From an uncultured Acidimicrobiales bacterium (GTDB lineage Bacteria; Actinomycetota; Acidimicrobiia; Acidimicrobiales; UBA10347), in the NCBI GenBank assembly GCA_938015575.1, contig CALLPT010000146.1, positions 1-32,822 on the forward strand: a stretch of DNA of 32,822 nucleotides, written 5' to 3'. This document shows positions 7,679-32,797 of this stretch, piece after piece (position 1 is the stretch's first letter; each line of letters starts with the position of its first letter). The notes beneath the pieces are model-generated. The model searched no databases, had not been told where the DNA came from, and saw nothing but the letters and a program-made list of their open reading frames with translations. The position numbers and the translations under genes are program-made.

Positions 7679-9754
<2,076 letters not shown>

Positions 9755-9789
9755 CCACTTCGTTCTCACCGACTCACTTCCCGGATTCC

Positions 9790-9883
9790 GGGTTCAGAAT
9801 CGGTGAGAAGCCGGAGGCGGGTTCAGAATCGGTGAGAAGCCGAAGGCGGGTTCGGAATCGGTGAGAAGCCGGAGGGTGGGTTC
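9790..9883 (+). repeat. 29/30-nt direct tandem repeat, three units plus partial fourth, consensus GGGTTCAGAATCGGTGAGAAGCCGGAGGC
   Basis: Units start at 9790, 9819, 9848 and 9878 (partial); near-identical. Confidence 0.9.
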
Positions 9884-9885
9884 GC

Positions 9886-9897
9886 TAGCCTGGCTCG
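9886..9897 (+). promoter_or_regulatory. Leaderless-type -10 TAGCCT with N6 to ATG of helD-like gene
   Basis: TAGCCT-ggctcg-ATG. Confidence 0.4.
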
Positions 9898-11526
9898 ATG
9901 GTTGCGGTGGATCTTGACGAAGAACGCGCCGCGCTCGAACTCGCCAGGGCCGCAGCTGCCGACAAGCTGATCGAACTGCGATCGCGCAAACTCGTCGCAG
10001 CCGACGAGCTCAGCGAGGAGTACATGCAGGCGGTCGTGCGCGGCGCGATCGAGAAGCTGCAGAACGAGCTGACCGTCTTTGGACGCATCGACGACGATGA
10101 GCCCTGGCGTGTTGGGCTCTACGGCGTCGAGCAGCGGGGCAACCAGCTCGTGATCGACTGGCGGGCCCCGTTCGCGCAAGGTTTCTATCGCGCCCGGTTC
10201 GAAGACCCCATGGGCCTGACCCGTCGCGTCAGCTATGTCGGCGCCATCGATGAGCTCTTCATCGAAGAGTTCACGACGCAGCAAGTCACCGGGTCCTCCC
10301 CACTGATGGCCGAACTTGATCGGGGCCGCGGTGAGACGATGAAGACGGCAGTCGCGACGCTGCAAACCGAACAAGACGAACTCGTGCGTCGCGACCCCGA
10401 TGAACGCATGGTGCTGCGCGGCGGTCCCGGTACGGGCAAAACCGTGGTCGGTCTCCATCGCGCCGCGTGGCTGGTCTACAACGACCGGCGGGTGCTCTCG
10501 AGCGACATCTTGATCCTCGGCCCATCCGATCGGTATCTCAAGTACATCGCCTCGGTACTTCCGACGCTCGGCGAGAGCAAGGTCCGACAGACGACCTTTG
10601 CTCGACTCTTGGGGCCCACGAGCGAGGTCGGGTCGACGATCGACTGGCCAACGGTTCTCGACCGGCTCGAGGCGTCGCTCTATGCGCCCCAGGCGCTGCA
10701 GATCCGTTTCAAACAGGTGAGCGAAGCCGACGTCGAGGCCATGCTCACCCACGTGCAGGGGTCGTCTCTGCCGTGGCGAGACAAGCGCAAGGGCGTCGAG
10801 TCAGCGCTGATTCGCCACACGGGGTTCGCCGCAAAAGATGTGCGCGAGGGGGTGGCTGCGGTGATGCCGGCGTGCAGCGCGGCCCAGGCCTGGAAGCGAC
10901 TGAAGAACCCGGCGACGCTGCGAGCGCTGGGTCTCGACGACGAGACGATCGCGGCGTGGCGAATGGTCGACGAGGACGGGCCATTGATGGACGAGCTCCA
11001 CGCCCGCTTCAACTCGTCGACGACCCGGTATTCCCATGTCGTGGTCGACGAGGCCCAGGACCTCACCGAGATGCAGCTCCGGGCCGTGCAGCGCCGGGCG
11101 ACCGGGCTCACGCTCGTCGGCGACGATGCCCAGACCTCGGCCCCGGGCGCGCTCGGGCTGAGCGCGATTGCGGCGCGGCTCGGAATCGTCCAGGACATCC
11201 TCGCGACCGCTTATCGAATGTCAGCCGAGATCGCCGACTGGCTCAACGAGCATGCGGCCGAGAGCGGGTTGCCGGCGGTGGAGCTGATCGGCATCCGCCC
11301 GACCGGACGCCCGGTGACTCGGATCGCGCCCAGCGAGATCGAAGCGGTTGCGGCGCGTCTCGACGCCGACTGGCCAAACGCTCGGGTGCTCGCCCATGGA
11401 GACGTGTGGATCCACAAGGGCATCGAGTACGACGCGGTGCTCGTCGACACTCGAGGGATGGACGCGGCCGAGATCTATCTCGCCGCGTCGCGCGCCGCGC
11501 ACGAACTCGTTGTGGTCGGCCGTTAG
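9898..11526 (+). CDS. HelD/HelR-like UvrD-family RNA polymerase-associated helicase, compact form (542 aa)
   Basis: LVIDWRAPFAQGFYRARFEDPMGLTRR (HelD N-terminal signature), Walker A GGPGTGKT, VVDEAQDLTEMQ, terminal AHELVVVGR. Confidence 0.8.
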   Translation: MVAVDLDEERAALELARAAAADKLIELRSRKLVAADELSEEYMQAVVRGAIEKLQNELTVFGRIDDDEPWRVGLYGVEQRGNQLVIDWRAPFAQGFYRARFEDPMGLTRRVSYVGAIDELFIEEFTTQQVTGSSPLMAELDRGRGETMKTAVATLQTEQDELVRRDPDERMVLRGGPGTGKTVVGLHRAAWLVYNDRRVLSSDILILGPSDRYLKYIASVLPTLGESKVRQTTFARLLGPTSEVGSTIDWPTVLDRLEASLYAPQALQIRFKQVSEADVEAMLTHVQGSSLPWRDKRKGVESALIRHTGFAAKDVREGVAAVMPACSAAQAWKRLKNPATLRALGLDDETIAAWRMVDEDGPLMDELHARFNSSTTRYSHVVVDEAQDLTEMQLRAVQRRATGLTLVGDDAQTSAPGALGLSAIAARLGIVQDILATAYRMSAEIADWLNEHAAESGLPAVELIGIRPTGRPVTRIAPSEIEAVAARLDADWPNARVLAHGDVWIHKGIEYDAVLVDTRGMDAAEIYLAASRAAHELVVVGR

Positions 11527-12104: not shown

Positions 12105-14168
12105 ATGAACCCCCTGGAGCCGACCGATCTGGTCGACCGCATCTTCGGAGACCGGTTTCGAGTCGTCGGGCGCGTCGAAACCGGACCTCACGCCGAGGTC
12201 TGCGTCGCCGTGGACCTCGACGCGGGGGAGCACGTCGCGCTCAAGGTGTTCGACCAGGCACTCGGCGAGGATCCCGATCTGGCCGAACGCATCATCGAAG
12301 CCATCGACGACGCAGCCGAAGTCCGGCATCCGACCCTGGTCGAGATCATCGATCGCGGCATCGCAGGGGTCCGGATCTGGGTCGCTTCCGAGCTGTGCAC
12401 CGGCGGCAGCCTGCGGTCCATGCTCGCGCTCGGCGAGCGACTGACTCCGAGCCAGGCGTTGGTCATGAGCCTGGAATGCGCCCGGGTGTTGGACCACGTG
12501 CACGGCCACGGTCGCGTGCACCAAGGCCTCAAACCCGAGAACATCTTGTTCTCCGACGACCAGCGGCTGCGCATCACCGACATGGGCCTGTCGGCGGTGT
12601 TGGCCGACGCGCCGCTGGCCGACGCGAACCGTTCCGTCGACCGGGTTCGTTATCTCGCCCCGGAGCAGACCGAATCGGCACCGGTCACGGGCGAGGCCGA
12701 CCTGTACTCCCTCGCCCTCGTTGTCAACGAAGCGGTGAGCGGGCAAGGGCCCGCGGTCGCGGACACCGCAGTAGGTACAGCGGCGCTTCGCCGCACGACC
12801 CAAGCAGAACTCGCGAGCGACCTCGGCGCTTTGCGCTCGCCGCTCGAGCGGTGCGGGCGAATTCACGCCGAGGATCGTCCCGAGGCCGATGAACTCACGA
12901 TTGCGCTACTCGCTGCCGCCGAGACGATGTCGCGGCCTGGCCCGTTGCCACTGATCGGCATTCCCGGTTTGGGCTTGCTCGACCCGCCGACGCCGGTGCA
13001 GCCAGTGGCCTTCGAGCCCGGGCCCGTCGAGGTGCCTGGCCTCGATGGTCCTGTCGAGCCGGGCAATCTTGTCGCGGTCCCCGATGTCCCTGACGAGGTG
13101 GAGCGCGTTGCCCTCGAAGATCTCGATCGGGCCGAGCCGACCTTCGCCGACCTCGACGATGTCGAGGAACCAGTCGCGTTCGACGCGCCAACTTCGCCCG
13201 CCCAGGCCGCGTCCTCGGGGACGGTCTTTCGACAAGATGCCGAGGATCTCGACGATCACCTGCCGAGCTGGCCGCTCTTCGTACTCGGTGGGCTGGTCGC
13301 TCTTGCGGTCGCCGCATGGTTCGTCCTCGGATCTGCGGGTGGCGGAGGGGCAGCCTCGGTCCCGAACCTGATCGGCGCCGAAGAGGCCGAGGTTGTGGCA
13401 TTGGCGGAAGAAAGCGGCTGGCAGGTGAGCCGTCTCGAGACCCGACTCAATGGCAGCACGCCCGGGTCGATCGTGACCCAAGATCCTGCCGCGGGCGCCG
13501 AACTCGACGACGGCGAGACGCTCACCATCACCGTGTCGCTCGGCAGCGAGATGGTCGAGATCCCCGATGATGTCACCGGGCTCACCATCGAGCAGGCACG
13601 AGATCGACTGTCGGTTGCGAACCTGGTCGTCGGTGCCGTCACCGAAGAGAACAGTGAAACGGTCGACGCGGGCGTGGTGATCGATGTCGACGAGCCAACG
13701 CGCCAGAAGCCGGCGGGCGAGTCCGTCGCGTTGCGAGTTTCGATCGGCCCCGAGGCGCGCGTGGTGCCCGATGTCATCGGTACCAGCATCAGCGATGCGA
13801 CCGCCGTGCTGGCCGCCCTGCGGCTCCAGGCCGACGAGCAGCTGGTCTTCGACCCGTTCGCTGAAGCCGGGACAGTGCTCGGCAGTCTGCCCGGCGCCGG
13901 TGAACCGGCGGCAGCTGACTCTCAGGTGCTCCTGCAGGTCAGCGCCGGCCCCGAGCCTGTCGTCATCCCTGACGTCACCGACCTGGCGCTCGCCGACGCG
14001 GTCGACATCATCGAGTCGTTCGGCCTGATCTTTGCCGATACGCAGGGAACGCCGGGCGAGCCTGTGATCGGGACCTTCCCCGACATCGGGCAGACCGTCG
14101 ATGTGGGCACCGAGATCACGATCGTGTTGGGCGAACCGAGTGACGAGGAAGCCGCCGAAGACGGCTAG
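12105..14168 (+). CDS. PASTA-domain receptor Ser/Thr kinase homologue, predicted pseudokinase
   Basis: Start MNPLEPTDLVDRIFGDRF; kinase landmarks VALKVF, HQGLKPENILF (not HRD), DMG, APE; TM WPLFVLGGLVALAVAAWFVL; four PASTA domains. Confidence 0.85.
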   Translation: MNPLEPTDLVDRIFGDRFRVVGRVETGPHAEVCVAVDLDAGEHVALKVFDQALGEDPDLAERIIEAIDDAAEVRHPTLVEIIDRGIAGVRIWVASELCTGGSLRSMLALGERLTPSQALVMSLECARVLDHVHGHGRVHQGLKPENILFSDDQRLRITDMGLSAVLADAPLADANRSVDRVRYLAPEQTESAPVTGEADLYSLALVVNEAVSGQGPAVADTAVGTAALRRTTQAELASDLGALRSPLERCGRIHAEDRPEADELTIALLAAAETMSRPGPLPLIGIPGLGLLDPPTPVQPVAFEPGPVEVPGLDGPVEPGNLVAVPDVPDEVERVALEDLDRAEPTFADLDDVEEPVAFDAPTSPAQAASSGTVFRQDAEDLDDHLPSWPLFVLGGLVALAVAAWFVLGSAGGGGAASVPNLIGAEEAEVVALAEESGWQVSRLETRLNGSTPGSIVTQDPAAGAELDDGETLTITVSLGSEMVEIPDDVTGLTIEQARDRLSVANLVVGAVTEENSETVDAGVVIDVDEPTRQKPAGESVALRVSIGPEARVVPDVIGTSISDATAVLAALRLQADEQLVFDPFAEAGTVLGSLPGAGEPAAADSQVLLQVSAGPEPVVIPDVTDLALADAVDIIESFGLIFADTQGTPGEPVIGTFPDIGQTVDVGTEITIVLGEPSDEEAAEDG

Positions 14169-23976: not shown

Positions 23977-24996
23977 ATGGCACAGCATCCGATGACGGAC
24001 TTCGACCCGAAGTTCACGACGCCCGAGGATTACATCCTCGGCATCACCTATGAGATTTGGGAAGGCCGGGGTGTCGACACGCTGCACCACTACTACGCGC
24101 CCGAGATCCCGGTTCGTTCCCCGGCAGGCGTCGTGATCGGCAACCAAGCCGTGATCGACGCCACCAACGAGACACTTCGCGAGTTCCCGGATCGACAGCT
24201 CATGGGCGAAGACGTGATCTGGAGCGACGACGGCGAGGGTGGATTCTTGTCGAGTCACCGCATCTTCTCGACCGCCACCCACCTGGCCGACGGCGCCTAC
24301 GGAAAGGCGAGCGGCACGAAGTTCCGGTACCGCATCATCGCCGATTGCGCCGCCCGGGCGAACACGATCTATGACGAGTGGCTGATCCGCGACCAGGGTG
24401 CCATCGTTGCCCAAACCGGCATCGATCCTCGGCAATATGCCGCGGATCAGATCGAGGCCGAAGGTGGCGCAGCAACCGCGGCGCGGCCCTACACACCGGC
24501 CAGCGAGCCTGGTCTGGTCTACACCGGCACGGGCAATGACCACCCCGTTGGCCAGCGCTACGGCGACATCTTGTCCTCGGTCATGGCGGGCCCGCTCGGC
24601 GCTGGCAACGAGGCCGCGGGAGGTCTCAACGGAACCGACGCCATCGCTTCGGCCTATGACCGGGCCGCGCACCTCGAGCTTCCAGGAGCAACCAGTGAGC
24701 ACGGTTGGGCGGGCGCTCGTCGGTTCTGGAGCTCGCTGCGCGAGTGCTTCCCCGACGCCACCTTCACGATCCACCACCAGATCGGTCGAGACGATCCGGG
24801 ACTGGGGGAGCGGGCGGCACTCCGATGGTCGTTGCACGGCACGCACGACGGTGGCAGCCGCTACGGCACCCCGACCGGCGTCGAGGTATACGTGATGGGT
24901 CTCTCCCATGCTGAGTTCGGGCCGTGGGGCTTGCGTCGCGAGTGGGTCCTCTTCGACGACACCGCGATCTGGAAGCAGATCCTGCTCGACGCTTAG
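23977..24996 (+). CDS. Double NTF2/SnoaL-like domain protein
   Basis: 339 aa, two ester-cyclase/SnoaL-like halves (EIWEGRGVDTLHHYYAPEIPVRSPAGVVIGNQAVIDAT... and GARRFWSSLRECFPDATFTIHHQIG...). Confidence 0.75.
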   Translation: MAQHPMTDFDPKFTTPEDYILGITYEIWEGRGVDTLHHYYAPEIPVRSPAGVVIGNQAVIDATNETLREFPDRQLMGEDVIWSDDGEGGFLSSHRIFSTATHLADGAYGKASGTKFRYRIIADCAARANTIYDEWLIRDQGAIVAQTGIDPRQYAADQIEAEGGAATAARPYTPASEPGLVYTGTGNDHPVGQRYGDILSSVMAGPLGAGNEAAGGLNGTDAIASAYDRAAHLELPGATSEHGWAGARRFWSSLRECFPDATFTIHHQIGRDDPGLGERAALRWSLHGTHDGGSRYGTPTGVEVYVMGLSHAEFGPWGLRREWVLFDDTAIWKQILLDA

Positions 24997-25066: not shown

Positions 25067-26086
25067 GTGAGGGGAAACACGGGGTCGACCACGACGAGGT
25101 CCGGCCGGGTCACATCGCATGATGTAGCGACCGAGGCTGGCGTGTCACAAGCCACGGTGGCGCGCGTCTTCTCTTCGCCCGACAAAGTCGCCCCAGCGAC
25201 CCGCGAAAAGGTGCGTGCGGCCGCCGATCGGCTCGGCTACGTGCCGAATGCGATCGCTCGAAGCCTCAAGGCGCAACGCACCGACATCGTCGGTGCCATC
25301 GTTCCCGCGTTCGGCGAGTACTGGCAGCATGTGCTCACCCTGTTCTCCCGACAGCTCACCGAACGCCGCAAGCAGCTCCTGCTGTTCAGCTTCGCCGAAC
25401 CGAGCCAGGTCAACGACGTCTTGGAAACCGTCGCCCGGTATCGACTGGACGGCCTGATCGCTGCATCGGCCAGCATCGGCCCCGCACAGCTCGCCCGCAT
25501 CGAACAGCTCGCCATGCCAACGGTGGCATTCAATCAGCCGGCGGCGGCCGGCCTGGTCCCCTCGGTCACCGTCGACAACGAAGCCGGCAGCCAGGCGTTG
25601 GCGGCACACATCGTCGACCGAGGCGCTCGCTCCGCGATCTTCGTCGGCGGCATCGCCTCGACGAGCACCGACCAACAGCGCTATCGGGGTGCCGTCGCCG
25701 AGCTTGGCACCCACGGCGTCGCGTGCCGCTATGTCGAAGCTGGCGCCTTCAGCTACGAAGCCGGCTACAAGATCGCCCAGCACCTGGCCGACGATGTCGA
25801 CGATCGGGCCGATGCGATCCTCGTCGGCAGTGACGAAGTCGCATTCGGTGTCGTCGACGGTCTTCGTGAGCGCGGCATCGAGGCCCCGCGAGATGTCTTG
25901 TTGACCGGTTTCGACGGTCTGCCGCAAGCCAGCTGGGTCGGCTACGACCTGACCACACTCGAACAGCCTGTCGAGCTGCTGGTCGAACATGCGCTGACCC
26001 GACTACTCGACGACGGCCACGCCAGCGAATCCACCGATGTCGTGGTGCCGGGAACCATTCGCCAGGGAAGGACTACCAATGCCTGA
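25067..26086 (+). CDS. LacI-family transcriptional regulator
   Basis: [54 protein letters not shown]; periplasmic-binding-like sensor domain. Confidence 0.93.
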
Positions 26087-27362
26087 GATCATCAAAGACG
26101 CCACTGCCAAGTCGGCCCATGGCGCCAACCTCGAGCTCGCCGAGACGGTGCGTTCCATCATCGCCGACATCGAGGAGCGCGGCGAGGCGGCGGTGCGCGA
26201 ACTCAGCGAGAAGTTCGACAACTGGACGCCCGAGGCCTTCCGTCTCAGCGAGCAGCAGATCGCCGATGTGGTGGCCAGCGTCGACCCGCAGACGATCGCC
26301 GACATCAAGTTCGCCCAGACCCAGATCCGCAACTTCGCCGAAGCCCAGCTGGCAACGCTGAGCGATGTCGAAGTCGAAACGCTGCCCGGCGTGTTCCTCG
26401 GGCACCGCAATCTGCCGGTAGCGAGCGTCGGCTGCTACGTGCCCGGTGGCCGCTACCCCATGGTGGCCAGCGCCCACATGTCGGTGTTGACCGCCAAGGT
26501 CGCCGGCGTGCCGCGGGTCGCCGCATGCACTCCGCCAATCAATGGCGAGATTCCGGCCGAGACCGTCACGGCCATGCATCTCGCCGGCGCCGATGAGATC
26601 TATCTGCTCGGCGGGATCCAGGCCGTTGCCGCCATGGCGATCGGCACCGAGTTCGTCGACCCGGTCGACTTCCTCGTCGGCCCGGGCAATGCCTTTGTTG
26701 CCGAAGCCAAGCGTCTGCTGTTCGGACGCGTCGGCATCGACCTGCTCGCCGGCCCGACCGAGACCCTGGTCATTGCCGACGACACCGTCGACGGCGAAAT
26801 CTGCGCCACGGACCTGCTGGGCCAGGCCGAACACGGACCGACCTCGCCCGCCGTGCTGGTGACCACGAGTCGTGAGCTCGCACACGACACGATCGCCGAA
26901 GTCGCTCGTCAGCTCGAAACTCTGGCGACCGCCGATGTGGCTTCGGTGGCGTGGCAGGACTACGGCCGAGTCATCCTCTGCGAGGACAACGCCGAGATGC
27001 TCGCCGTTGCCGAGGACCTGGCCTTTGAACACGTCCAGGTGATGACCAACGACGACGACTACTTCTTCGAGCACATGCGCAACTACGGCGCCCTGTTCCT
27101 CGGACCCATGACCAACGTCAGCTACGGCGACAAGGTCATCGGCACCAACCACACACTGCCGACGCAGGGCGCCGCCCGCTACACGGGCGGTCTGTGGGTT
27201 GGCAAGTTCATCAAGACGGTGACCCACCAACGGGTCACCAATGCCGCGTCGAGCGCCATGATCGGCGAGTACTGCTCTCGCCTGTGCGCCATCGAAAACT
27301 TCGCCGGCCACCAGGCTCAGGCCGACATTCGCGTCGAACGCTACGGAGCGGCCGCGAACTGA
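26079..27362 (+). CDS. Histidinol dehydrogenase-family (HisD/HpsN-like) NAD-dependent dehydrogenase
   Basis: [83 protein letters not shown]; overlaps lacI stop by 8 nt. Confidence 0.85.
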
Positions 27363-27406
27363 TGGGCACCGTCTGATGGGCACTGTCTGATGGGTACTGT
27401 CTGATG
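27360..27406 (+). repeat. 14-nt tandem repeat TGATGGGYACYGTC (three units plus fourth start), each unit a 4-codon mini-ORF MGTV*
   Basis: ATG at 27362, 27376, 27390 and 27404; TGA at 27374, 27388 and 27402. Confidence 0.95.
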
Positions 27407-28150
27407 GGTACCGCGATCGTCACCGGAGCGAGCGGAGGCATTGGCTCAGCCATTGCCCAACGGCTCGCGGCCGACGGCATGTCCGTGGTGGTGGGCTACG
27501 GCTCGTCGGCCGAGCGCGCCGCAGCCGTGGTCGACTCGCTCGACACCAGCGCCGGTCAGACACACACCGCCCTCGCCATCCCGGTCACCGACAGCAACGC
27601 GCTCGATGTCGTCGCCACCGAGATCGGCGAGCAGTATCGCGCCGTCGATGTGCTCGTGAATTGCGCCGGCAAGACACAACCCGTCGCCCACGATGATCTT
27701 GACGGGCTTAGCGACGACGTCATCGACGACATCTTCGCCACGAACTGGCGCGGACCGTTCGCTTGTGTTCGTGCGTTCCGGTCGCTGCTCGACGCGGCCG
27801 AGGCTCCCGTGATCGTCAACATCTCGTCGGTCTCCGGCGTGACCGGCCAGGGAAGCAACGTCGCCTACTGCGCATCCAAGGCTGCGCTCGACTCGATGAC
27901 CCGATCGCTGGCGCGAGCGCTCGGCCCAGCAATACGAGTCGTCTCGGTCTCGCCCGGTTGGGTGCTGGGGGAGTACGCCGCCCGCATGCCCGCCGAGATC
28001 CTGGACATCCAACGAGACGCCACGCCCCTGGGTCGCCTTGCGACCGGCGACGACGTCGCCGCTGCCGTCAGCGCAGTCGTGCGCGACCTCCCCTTCACTA
28101 CCGGAACCATCATCAGCGTCGACGGTGGTCGACCACTCGGAACCAACTGA
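27404..28150 (+). CDS. Short-chain dehydrogenase/reductase
   Basis: VTGASGGIGSAIAQRL, NCAG, YCASK, SVDGGRPLG. Confidence 0.93.
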   Translation: MGTAIVTGASGGIGSAIAQRLAADGMSVVVGYGSSAERAAAVVDSLDTSAGQTHTALAIPVTDSNALDVVATEIGEQYRAVDVLVNCAGKTQPVAHDDLDGLSDDVIDDIFATNWRGPFACVRAFRSLLDAAEAPVIVNISSVSGVTGQGSNVAYCASKAALDSMTRSLARALGPAIRVVSVSPGWVLGEYAARMPAEILDIQRDATPLGRLATGDDVAAAVSAVVRDLPFTTGTIISVDGGRPLGTN

Positions 28151-28151
28151 C

Positions 28152-29288
28152 ATGTCGACTCCCGCACCTGACCAGCCCGTGACCGGCGACGAACTGACTC
28201 GCCGCATCATCGAACCCGACGACTTCATCGCCGATACCGAGGCATTCGTCGACGTGCGTATCGAGCGCAGCCAGGGCAAAGCGAGCTACTCGTTCATCGG
28301 GCCGGGCGTCAGCCAGAACGCCGATCAGAAGATCAACCTGACCGTGCCCCACGGCTTCAACGTCGGGGCGGCCTCGATGCCGAGCGGCGTGGTCAACAAC
28401 CCCCACCTGCACTACACCGCCGAGGTCTTCATCTGCACCCGCGGCAGCTTCCGGATCGACATCGGCCGCAACGGCGAACAGTCGGTTGACCTTGGCGTTG
28501 GCGACGTGTTCGTCGCGCCGACCTGGGTGTTCCGCGGCTTCACGAACACCGGCGCTGACGACAGTTGGGTTTTCGTCGTGCTCGGCGGCGACGACACCGG
28601 CGGCATCATCTGGTCGCCCGACGTGCTGCGCGAAGCGGCCGATACCGGCCTGCACCTGGCACCGGACAACTCGCTGATCGATGCCGCCGCCGGTCAAGAC
28701 ACAACCGGCGCCGTGGAACCAGTTGACGACGTCGACCTGCAGGGAATCGACAGCTACACCGATCGAGAGTTGGCCGCGCATCTGGTCGCCGCCGGGGACC
28801 GGTCGTGGAGCAGGCGAGCGATGTTGTCATCGGTGCTCGATGGACACGGCGCTGAACTTGCCTCCGTGCTCGGCCATGGCATGTCCGAAGATCGCCGTCA
28901 GCGGGCCCCGATCATGACCGCACAAGGCTTCTCGATCGAGTGGTTACGCGTCGAGCCTGGGTGCTCGACAGCCCTGCATCGCATCCAGGAATCACAGGTC
29001 CTGTTGCTGACCGAAGGCGACTGGCAAGTGAGTCTGAATCGTGGCGATGACCAGGTCGACGCGAAACCCGCGACCGGGTCGGTCGTGTCGGTCCCCGAGG
29101 GCGCCTGGCGAAACTTCAGCAATGTCGGAAGCGATGTTGCCGTCGCCGCCGTCGTCTGTGGCACCGACAGCCCCAATCACATCGAATGGGCACCCGAAGT
29201 CGTGGCGGCAGCTCGAGCGGCAGGCTGGGTCCGCGATGCGAACGGCAAGGTTGCGCCGATCTCGTTGTTGCCGGGAGGACGAGCATGA
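28152..29288 (+). CDS. Bicupin-domain protein
   Basis: Two cupin halves: NNPHLHYTAEVFICTRGSFRIDIG...GDVFVAPTWVFRGFTN and PGCSTALHRIQESQVLLLTEGDWQVSL...VPEGAWRNFSN. Confidence 0.75.
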   Translation: MSTPAPDQPVTGDELTRRIIEPDDFIADTEAFVDVRIERSQGKASYSFIGPGVSQNADQKINLTVPHGFNVGAASMPSGVVNNPHLHYTAEVFICTRGSFRIDIGRNGEQSVDLGVGDVFVAPTWVFRGFTNTGADDSWVFVVLGGDDTGGIIWSPDVLREAADTGLHLAPDNSLIDAAAGQDTTGAVEPVDDVDLQGIDSYTDRELAAHLVAAGDRSWSRRAMLSSVLDGHGAELASVLGHGMSEDRRQRAPIMTAQGFSIEWLRVEPGCSTALHRIQESQVLLLTEGDWQVSLNRGDDQVDAKPATGSVVSVPEGAWRNFSNVGSDVAVAAVVCGTDSPNHIEWAPEVVAAARAAGWVRDANGKVAPISLLPGGRA

Positions 29289-30037
29289 GCGACCAGACGG
29301 AACTCCGCGTGGTGTTGCTGCCTGGCAGCCTGTGCGACGAACGTCTTTTCCTGCACCAGATCGCGGCACTCGAAGATGCCGGCCACGACGTGATCGTCGC
29401 CCAGTTGCGCCCGCACATCTCGATCGAGGCCATGGCCGAGCATGTTGCCAGCGTTGTTGACGGACCTTTCGTCGCCGTTGGTCTATCGCTCGGCGCCATC
29501 GTGGCCGCCGAACTGATCGCACACTGTCCGGAGCGGTTGCTCGGCGTGGCGCTGCTCGACACCAACCTCGACGAACCGTCGGCCGAACAGGTCGAGACCC
29601 GTCGGGTCTGGGAGACCACCGTCCGATCCGGCAAGCTCTGGCAACTGGTGGCCCAAGAGCTGGTGCCGGCGCAGACATCATTCCCCGAACGCCACGGCCA
29701 ACTGATCTTCGCGATGGCCGAAACGGCCAGTTCGGCCGGCTTCCTCAGCGACAACCACGCCTTGCTGCATCGACACGACCGCCGGGGCTTGCTCGCCGAT
29801 CTCGACGCACCCATCCTCATTGCCTGTGGCGACGAAGACATCGTCTGCCCGCCGGCGCTGCATCAGGCCCTCGCCGAGCAGCATCCCCGCGCCCGTTTCG
29901 AGCGCATCGTGCGCGCCGGACATCTGGCAACGATCGACCAACCAGCTGCGGTGAGCGACCTGCTCATCGGCTGGCTCGAACAGATCTCCACCGAGATCAA
30001 AACCCTGGAGGGAAACCATGCACACGACCCCGCATAG
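29285..30037 (+). CDS. Alpha/beta-fold hydrolase
   Basis: LLPGSLCDERLF, nucleophile elbow GLSLG, GDEDIVCPP, AGHLATIDQP; ATGA overlap with bicupin. Confidence 0.88.
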   Translation: MSDQTELRVVLLPGSLCDERLFLHQIAALEDAGHDVIVAQLRPHISIEAMAEHVASVVDGPFVAVGLSLGAIVAAELIAHCPERLLGVALLDTNLDEPSAEQVETRRVWETTVRSGKLWQLVAQELVPAQTSFPERHGQLIFAMAETASSAGFLSDNHALLHRHDRRGLLADLDAPILIACGDEDIVCPPALHQALAEQHPRARFERIVRAGHLATIDQPAAVSDLLIGWLEQISTEIKTLEGNHAHDPA

Positions 30038-32735
30038 GTGGCGACGTCTGCTCGCCATCCTCTTTGCGTTCGTCATGTTCGCCGCGGCGTGCGGCGGCAG
30101 CGACGGCGCAGAGAGCGCCGACGACGCTCCCGCAGCGTCTGAATCGGACTCGTCGAGTTCGTCGTCAGATGACGATGCCGCGATGGACGAAGACGACGAC
30201 GCTATGGAAGACGACGAGCCAGAGCCGACGCCAGAACCGGTCGAGATCGACCAGTCCACCGTGATCAGCGATGAATGCTCCATTCCGAACCCCGACGACG
30301 AAGTCGAGATCGACATCATTGGCTGGGAGTTTCCGATCGTCACGCAGTACGCGGACGAGTTCGAGGACTGCGAAGACGGCAACTATGCCTTCAACTACCA
30401 GTTCCTCGACAGCCAGGCGGCTCGTGAGCAGATGACGCTCGACGCGTCGACCGGCTCACCTGAATTCGAGCTCTACCAGGGCTCGAACGCGTTCATCATC
30501 GAGCTGGCGAACCAGGGCTACCTGATGCCGCTCAACGACCTCATCGCCAAGTACGGCGACGAGTACGGACTGAGCGAAATCGACCAGGCGTTCTTCGACT
30601 TCGCGTCGATCGACGGCAATGTCTACGCGATCCCTGCCGTGTCGAACACGATGCACGTGTTCTACAACGAGCCCGCACTCGCCGACATCGGCGTCGACGT
30701 GCCAACGACCTTCGCCGAAGCACTCGATGCGTGCCCGACGATCCAGGCCGCCGGTTACGACATCGGCTTCCTCTACATGCTGTCCGCCGGTTGGGCATGG
30801 CAGATCGAGTTCGACTCGGTGCTCGGTTCGCTCGGCAAGACCAACATCGATCCGGTGACCGGCGCTCCTCAGTTCAACAGTCCTGAGGGCATCGAAGCCG
30901 CCAACATCCTCAAGGACATGCACGATGTCTGTGGTGGCGGCGCTGCTGGCACCTACAGCACCGATGACGTGCAGGCTGCGTTCCAGACCGGCGAAGCGAT
31001 CCTGGGTCACACCTGGGCGTCGCGTGCTGCTGCGATGGATGACGAAGAGGCTTCGACCGAAGTCGGCAACATCCAGTTCGCTCCTGCCTTGAGCAGTGGC
31101 GGCAGCGTGCTTGCTGCTCCGGCCTACATCGACGGCTGGGGCATTCCGGTCGGCACCCCTGCCGACAAGATCGACGAGATCTTCCTGGCGATCATGGGCG
31201 CCACCGACCGCGAGTCGCAGGAAGCTGCGGCCGAGTTCGGTCTCGTGACCCGCTCTGGCGTGACCAACCCGAACGGTCCTCGTGACGGCGCTGCTGCCGA
31301 GGCCAGCCTGGTCAACGGTCGTGGACCGGACCTTGCACACCCTGCTGCGGGCATCGCTCGCGCCAAGCTGGGCGAAGCACTGGTGACCATCCTTGATGGC
31401 ACTGATCCCGCCGATGCACTTGCTGCTGCCGAAGAGGCCTACCTCGCCGAAGCTGGCGATCAGGGTCTGCTCGGCGACGCAGGCGGCGACGGTGAATCCG
31501 CCGCGGCGATCTCGTTCGACGAGGTCATCAGCGACGAGTGCGCGATCCCACCCGTCGATGGCTTCGAACTCGACGTCATCGGTTGGGAGTTCCCGATCGT
31601 GACCCAGTACGCCGAGGAACTCGAGGACTGTGAAGATGGCGGTTACGAGCTGAACTACCAGTTCCTCGACAGCACCGCCGCTCGCGAGCAGATGACCCTC
31701 GACGCTTCGACCGGTGAACCCGAGTTCGAGCTTTACCAGGGCTCCAACGCGTTCATCATCGAGCTGGCGAACCAGGGCTACCTGATGCCACTCAACGATC
31801 TGATCGAGAAGTACTCGAGCACCTTTGGTCTCGACGAGATCGACCAGGCGTTCTTCGACTTCGCGTCGATCGACGGCAACATCTACTCGGTGCCAATGGT
31901 GTCGAACACGATGCACCTGTTCTACAACGAGACCGAGATGAACAATCTCGGCCTCGAGGTGCCGACGACGTTCGCCGAGGCGTTCGAGACCTGTGCGGCG
32001 ATCCAAGATGCTGGCTACGACATCGGCTTCTTGTACATGTTGTCGGCCGGTTGGGCGTGGCAGATCGAGTTCGATTCGGTCCTCGGCGCCAACGGCCTCG
32101 ACCCGATCGACCCGGTCAGTGGTCAGCCGAACTTCAACAGCCCTGAGGGCATCGAAGCAGCGAACCTGCTGAAGCAGATGCACGACGACTGTGGTGGCGG
32201 CGCTGCTGGTACCTACAGCACCGACGATGTGCAGGCAGCGTTCCAGACCGGCGAAGCGATCCTGGGTCACACCTGGGCGTCGCGTGCTGCTGCGATGGAC
32301 GATCCCGAAGCATCGACGGTGGTCGGCGACATGCAGTTCGCACCTGCGCTGGCAACCACCGGCGACGTGCTTGCTGCTCCGGCCTACATCGACGGCTGGG
32401 GCATCCCGGCCGGCACGCCCGAGGACAAGGTCGAAACGATCTTCCTCGCGATGATGGCAGCCACCGACCGCGAGTCGCAGGAAGCTGCGGCCGAGTTCGG
32501 CCTGGTAACCCGTGACGGAGTCACCAACGAGAACGGCCCTCGCGATGGCGCTGCTGCGGCAGCCAGCCTCGTGAACGGTCGTGGCCCGGACCTCACCCAT
32601 CCGGCCGCCGGCATTGCCCGCGCCAAGCTGGGCGAAGCACTGGTCACCATCCTCGATGGCACCGACCCGGCCGACGCACTCGCGGCGGCCGAAGAGGCCT
32701 ACCTCGCCGAAGCCGGCGAACAGGGCCTCCTGTAA
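30018..32735 (+). CDS. ABC transporter extracellular solute-binding lipoprotein with two tandem SBP domains
   Basis: Lipoprotein-type signal (LLAILFAFVMFAAACGG), acidic linker, two about 400-aa copies (IGWEFPIVTQYA..., DRESQEAAAEFGLVTR... each present twice). Confidence 0.88.
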   Translation: MHTTPHRWRRLLAILFAFVMFAAACGGSDGAESADDAPAASESDSSSSSSDDDAAMDEDDDAMEDDEPEPTPEPVEIDQSTVISDECSIPNPDDEVEIDIIGWEFPIVTQYADEFEDCEDGNYAFNYQFLDSQAAREQMTLDASTGSPEFELYQGSNAFIIELANQGYLMPLNDLIAKYGDEYGLSEIDQAFFDFASIDGNVYAIPAVSNTMHVFYNEPALADIGVDVPTTFAEALDACPTIQAAGYDIGFLYMLSAGWAWQIEFDSVLGSLGKTNIDPVTGAPQFNSPEGIEAANILKDMHDVCGGGAAGTYSTDDVQAAFQTGEAILGHTWASRAAAMDDEEASTEVGNIQFAPALSSGGSVLAAPAYIDGWGIPVGTPADKIDEIFLAIMGATDRESQEAAAEFGLVTRSGVTNPNGPRDGAAAEASLVNGRGPDLAHPAAGIARAKLGEALVTILDGTDPADALAAAEEAYLAEAGDQGLLGDAGGDGESAAAISFDEVISDECAIPPVDGFELDVIGWEFPIVTQYAEELEDCEDGGYELNYQFLDSTAAREQMTLDASTGEPEFELYQGSNAFIIELANQGYLMPLNDLIEKYSSTFGLDEIDQAFFDFASIDGNIYSVPMVSNTMHLFYNETEMNNLGLEVPTTFAEAFETCAAIQDAGYDIGFLYMLSAGWAWQIEFDSVLGANGLDPIDPVSGQPNFNSPEGIEAANLLKQMHDDCGGGAAGTYSTDDVQAAFQTGEAILGHTWASRAAAMDDPEASTVVGDMQFAPALATTGDVLAAPAYIDGWGIPAGTPEDKVETIFLAMMAATDRESQEAAAEFGLVTRDGVTNENGPRDGAAAAASLVNGRGPDLTHPAAGIARAKLGEALVTILDGTDPADALAAAEEAYLAEAGEQGLL
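30262..31472 (+). repeat. Intragenic direct duplication, copy 1 of SBP domain
   Basis: Aligns to 31524-32732 at an offset of 1260 nt (1263 before a one-codon difference near the start). Confidence 0.9.
31524..32732 (+). repeat. Intragenic direct duplication, copy 2 of SBP domain
   Basis: Aligns to 30262-31472. Confidence 0.9.
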
Positions 32736-32747
32736 TCAACCACTGAC

Positions 32748-32797
32748 GAACGGTCGGGAGGCCGCCTCGCCCACGCGACGGCGACCTCCCACCGTTC
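32748..32797 (+). terminator. Strong GC-rich hairpin, probable transcription terminator
   Basis: GAACGGTCGGGAGGCCGCC ... GGCGACCTCCCACCGTTC pair with one bulge and one G-T/mismatch position; no clear U-tract. Confidence 0.6.

Follow-up and report, generated by a model that had tools for sequence, protein, structure and literature searches.

It has long been asked why importers have one, two or four binding sites, and GlnPQ has served for detailed study of the matter. In this importer of Lactococcus lactis, two amino-acid-binding domains of the solute-binding protein (SBP) fold, SBD1 and SBD2, stand in tandem on a short flexible linker of 14 aa, are fused to the permease and feed one ABC importer; they differ in specificity, and each retains its own affinity and works largely without regard to the other (PMC8025302). 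In the maltose system of Escherichia coli, a hairpin between malE and malF protects the malE mRNA, and the receptor outnumbers the permease (PMC5927463). Here we describe a lipoprotein gene with two SBP domains in one chain, found in a 32,822-nucleotide stretch of DNA from an uncultured Acidimicrobiales bacterium (assembly GCA_938015575.1), hereafter the window. Searches of the open-access literature turned up no earlier account of a free lipoprotein of this type with SBP domains in tandem.

RESULTS

One lipoprotein with two complete SBP domains

The preliminary description of the window had proposed a single lipoprotein with two full-length solute-binding domains, and a second genome, two predicted folds and a survey of homologues all agree with it. 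The reading frame (Table 1) is uninterrupted and encodes one lipoprotein with two complete SBP_bac_1 domains, which are of the maltose-binding-protein (MBP)-like kind; both domains score 96-102 bits against the PF01547 profile, for which the cut-off is 26, and are thereby members of that family. Two SBDs thus share one chain, as in GlnPQ, but the frame ends after copy 2, without fusion to a permease. The genes around it are tightly packed, and its start overlaps the 3' end of the hydrolase gene upstream. Single-domain relatives have the same N-terminal signal and lipobox. The acidic Ser/Asp/Glu stretch that had been described as a linker does lie behind the lipoprotein signal, but it joins the lipid-anchored Cys25 to copy 1 and not one copy to the other; acidic tethers of a similar kind are present in the relatives. 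The linker between the copies is short: GDAGGDGESAAAISFDE.

Table 1. Features of the tandem SBP gene and its surroundings in the window.
Feature	Position	Strand	Basis
SnoaL-like protein, upstream of operon	23977..24996	+	Pfam SnoaL; relatives also have one there
LacI-family operon regulator	25067..26086	+	Pfam LacI and Peripla_BP_3; synteny
HisD-fold dehydrogenase, HpsN-like	26037..27362	+	phmmer, 374 vs 253 bits
Short-chain dehydrogenase (SDR)	27404..28150	+	Pfam adh_short_C2
Cupin-domain protein, likely start 28152	28152..29288	+	Pfam Cupin_2; synteny
Alpha/beta hydrolase, likely start 29285	29285..30037	+	Pfam Abhydrolase_6
Tandem solute-binding lipoprotein gene, 905 aa	30018..32735	+	ORF; Pfam SBP_bac_1 in each half; orthologous 907-aa tandem in sister species
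Signal peptide, lipobox up to Cys25 (FAFVMFAAAC)	30018..30092	+	Lipobox rule pattern match
Acidic Ser/Asp/Glu/Pro tether, ~57 residues, Cys25 to copy 1	30093..30260	+	Sequence; predicted disordered, pLDDT <50 for residues 1-79
SBP domain copy 1, aa 82-485	30261..31472	+	PF01547 E=1e-28; complete fold in full-length model
Inter-domain linker, aa 486-502, ~17 residues	31473..31523	+	Predicted disordered, pLDDT <50 for residues 487-509
SBP domain copy 2, aa 503-905	31524..32732	+	PF01547 E=4e-27; AF2 pLDDT 84.9, pTM 0.79; Foldseek top match 5iai, TM 0.82
Strong stem-loop, after SBP stop codon and before permease gene	32748..32797	+	RNA fold -43.3 kcal/mol, z -5.8

Copy 2 was modeled with AlphaFold2 (scores in Table 1), and Foldseek matched the model to the MBP-type binders 5iai, MalE3, Streptomyces MalE, GacH and SmoF, the last being the binder for sulfoquinovosyl glycerol. 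TM scores of 0.75-0.82 against 5iai, MalE3 and SmoF place the predicted structure in the two-lobed periplasmic-binding fold. In a model of the full-length protein, helices and strands follow nearly the same order in both halves, and AlphaFold predicts both folds to be complete, with disorder in the N-terminal and linker residues listed in Table 1. The pTM of the full-length model is 0.46, at which the mutual placement of the two domains is not fixed. A disordered linker would suit a chain that is cut into two binding proteins, the tandem being only their precursor. SBPs of bacteria without an outer membrane, however, need a lipid anchor to stay with the cell; the second half would have none, and a cell lacking an outer membrane could not retain it, which makes cleavage highly improbable.

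The same tandem in a sister species

The window is a complete contig that ends 87 bases past the stop codon of the tandem gene, and the source MAG (G000) is fragmented (393 contigs, 80% complete). With the gene so near a contig end in such an assembly, an error had to be excluded in which the assembler doubled a single gene or joined the copies of two strains. Against this, the tandem recurs in the MAG of a sister species from the same genus (G004, CALDGN010000273.1), where the junction is identical and the length almost so. Moreover, the copies sort as orthologues: between the two genomes, copy 1 is 98.5% and copy 2 97% identical in amino acids, whereas the copies differ by 17-19% within both genomes. 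The dS between orthologues is 0.22 for copy 1 and 0.42 for copy 2, below that between the copies, which is 0.69 in the window gene and 0.50-0.69 across both genomes. The assembly duplication that the preliminary description had named as the danger to its reading was rejected on these grounds, and an artifact is scarcely credible. Judged by the same divergences, the duplication is older than the split of the two species. Synonymous divergence between the species in copy 2 (31524-32732) is about twice that in copy 1 (30261-31472), both measured against locus L014 of G004.

Orthologues of copy 1 have a dN/dS ratio of ~0.03 and those of copy 2 one of ~0.05, which shows purifying selection on both halves. 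Selection of this kind has held each half since the species split; with the tandem known from two genomes only, it speaks for the halves and not for the tandem state as such.

Distribution and origin

A search of one genome per species (84,980 species) yielded 25 loci, almost all of them in MAGs of the Acidimicrobiia group, and among them the tandem occurs only in G004. Other close relatives, at 44-77% identity, have a single domain each (298 genomes of the order), and the best matches listed for 118 genomes of the order include no tandem SBP_bac_1 frames beyond those of G000 and G004. Since this operon has a single SBP domain at some 25 related Acidimicrobiia loci, one origin of the fusion is probable. 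Maximum-likelihood trees unite the four tandem domains, though the support is moderate (83/77 and 84/72; 80% of bootstrap trees); this favors, and does not prove, a single fusion event in or just before the genus. Four other genomes of the genus, which are incomplete to varying degree, gave no SBP match. Near one single-domain operon there is a second SBP gene (L020, 15522-16187), 65% identical to copy 2 over 130 aa; this paralogue is a separate gene and is cut by the contig end.

The fusion might also be selectively neutral, an in-frame duplication that was tolerated and brought no benefit. The tandem is indeed confined to two species of one genus, and related lineages manage with one domain. 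A useless half should decay, however, whereas both halves have been constrained after the species split, so that we regard neutrality as improbable.

Divergence between the copies

The copies lie 1260 nt apart, the spacing of 420 codons given in the preliminary description, and its base counts were reproduced: 57 of 60 positions match for 30481 versus 31741 and again for 30961 versus 32221, and the stretch 30541-30660 is more diverged from 31801-31920 (92/120). The lines at 31381 and 32641 differ only by synonymous changes (51/60 nt, with an identical peptide in both copies). To call the copies near-identical was nevertheless an overstatement: over whole domains they are 83% identical in amino acids and 81% in nucleotides, and the 57/60 lines are conservation peaks. 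An identical run as long as the longest one between the copies (62 nt) seldom arises when codon patterns are shuffled (5/5000). The longest stretch of matching synonymous codons, however, does not clearly exceed what chance would give (p ~0.07), and the 62-nt segment is strongly conserved among relatives; constraint may therefore be enough to account for the 57/60 stretches, for which recent gene conversion is the other candidate.

The main rival to a same-ligand pair is a subfunctionalized tandem as in GlnPQ, whose domains would have diverged in affinity or ligand range and so widened uptake. The copies retain 75 differences, and each departs from family-conserved residues at sites of its own, mostly the same ones in the sister species; the copy split, moreover, is older than the species split, and GlnPQ demonstrates the principle (PMC8025302). 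In contrast, most of the differences sit where relatives vary as well: of 150 columns with at least 95% conservation among single-domain relatives, only 5 differ between the copies, compared with 42 of 120 variable ones. The presumed lining of the pocket has hardly changed. Eight segments, picked by homology with MBP so as to cover the expected pocket, are identical between the copies at 95 of 100 positions. Copy 1 has an M-to-A change within VPMVSNTMH, next to the segment aligned with Glu111 of MBP; given this change and the 75 retained differences, the affinities of the two domains may differ. Subfunctionalization has, on balance, a modest chance of being right.

Importer partners and candidate ligand

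The operon runs in the order LacI regulator, HpsN/HisD-like dehydrogenase, SDR, cupin, hydrolase, tandem SBP, MalF, MalG and then the ATPase. In G004, two BPD_transp_1 permeases follow the tandem gene (locus L015, 8138-9004 for MalF and 9008-10420 for MalG). In the window's own genome, contig C239 begins, at base 33, with the orthologous MalF (95% identical); MalG comes next, and an ABC ATPase lies farther along. We considered whether this genome lacks the permeases and rejected it, as they begin C239; most likely, the contig broke between the SBP gene and malF. The putative ATPase frame on C239 (4067-5251) is similar to one at 12380-13552 of locus L027, a MalK-type ATPase with ABC_tran, OB_MalK and TOBE_2 domains. 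In its paired permeases and its ATPase, the system matches the MalEFGK-type, or CUT1-like (carbohydrate-uptake-type), ABC importers. MalG of the genus is ~470 aa long versus 332-361 in most relatives (L015 9008-10420; L085, on C239, 925-2388); the extra ~110 residues are largely hydrophobic and lie between residues ~97 and ~208.

The dehydrogenase is closer in sequence to HpsN, the R-DHPS (sulfopropanediol) dehydrogenase (8wwe/8v35; 367-374 bits by phmmer), than to the best HisD (253 bits), and the genome has a second gene of the Histidinol_dh family on contig C331. Taken together, these make a C3 sulfonate or a sugar-acid-like compound a possible ligand; DHPS itself would be a guess. The HpsN-like dehydrogenase, SDR and cupin (26037-29288) belong to a conserved Acidimicrobiia operon, whose further partners at the relatives' loci are proteins of the SnoaL-like and methionine-synthase-like kinds and an ATPase of the MalK type.

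A stem-loop after the SBP gene

The strong stem-loop behind the tandem gene (Table 1) has no U tract in the window, and its equivalent in G004 has a z score of -5.9. Of 23 distinct loci, 22 have a stable hairpin in the gap between the SBP gene and malF (z < -2; median -4.4), conserved in position and not in sequence, and the intergenic region has no Rfam match. The gap between malF and malG measures -1 to 16 nt in all loci but one. In G004 (L015, 8006-8140), the second arm is also able to pair with another, third segment (ACCGTTCTGTGAGTG / CACTCACAGAACGGT), so that two adjacent hairpins result. Because the arrangement matches that of E. coli malE-malF, it suggests by analogy that this operon too is built for receptor excess, to which the tandem would add.

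DISCUSSION

We favor, with a probability of about 0.6, the reading that a pair of same-ligand domains on one lipid anchor feeds one MalEFGK-type importer and raises receptor density. An in-frame tandem duplication would have placed two complete copies of one binding domain on a single anchor, where both would bind the same ligand, act largely independently and alternate in docking on one MalFG permease. Each anchor and each transcript would thereby provide twice as many binding sites, and the local concentration of loaded receptor would presumably rise to the cell's benefit. A malE-malF-style hairpin that stabilized the SBP mRNA over the permease mRNA would serve the same goal.

A gain from avidity or from two docking states is plausible. 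It is doubtful that the two domains go further and cooperate on one permease, docking simultaneously or in alternation, so that a MalE-type importer would have a built-in second loaded receptor. To our knowledge, such cooperation of tandem domains on one permease has not been described as a mechanism for free lipoproteins. As the GlnPQ domains are largely independent (PMC8025302), independent binding with alternate docking, rather than cooperativity, would be expected here as well.

By family, the protein is an ordinary SBP_bac_1 importer receptor; its architecture is a rare variant, for which GlnPQ is the nearest precedent. With MalE/MalEFGK2-type importers (MBP, SmoF, GacH, 5iai) it shares the fold and the SBP-MalF-MalG order, and with E. 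coli malE-malF the stem-loop after the SBP gene. It differs from these importers in having two domains per chain where they have one; its identity to the solved ones is ~15-21%, and its ligand may differ. The syntenic Acidimicrobiia operons (L016-L053) share the operon, the lipoprotein signal and the acidic tether, and their SBP domain is of the same kind (42-77% identical), but each has one domain instead of two. Like GlnPQ, the tandem SBP sets two SBP-fold domains in a row on a short linker before what would be one ABC importer; unlike GlnPQ, it forms a lipoprotein of its own, maltose-binding in type, whose copies are 83% identical. Closely related operons with one or two domains, both domains apparently for the same ligand, offer a natural comparison, by which the effect of receptor number could be told apart from that of specificity, in which the GlnPQ domains differ.
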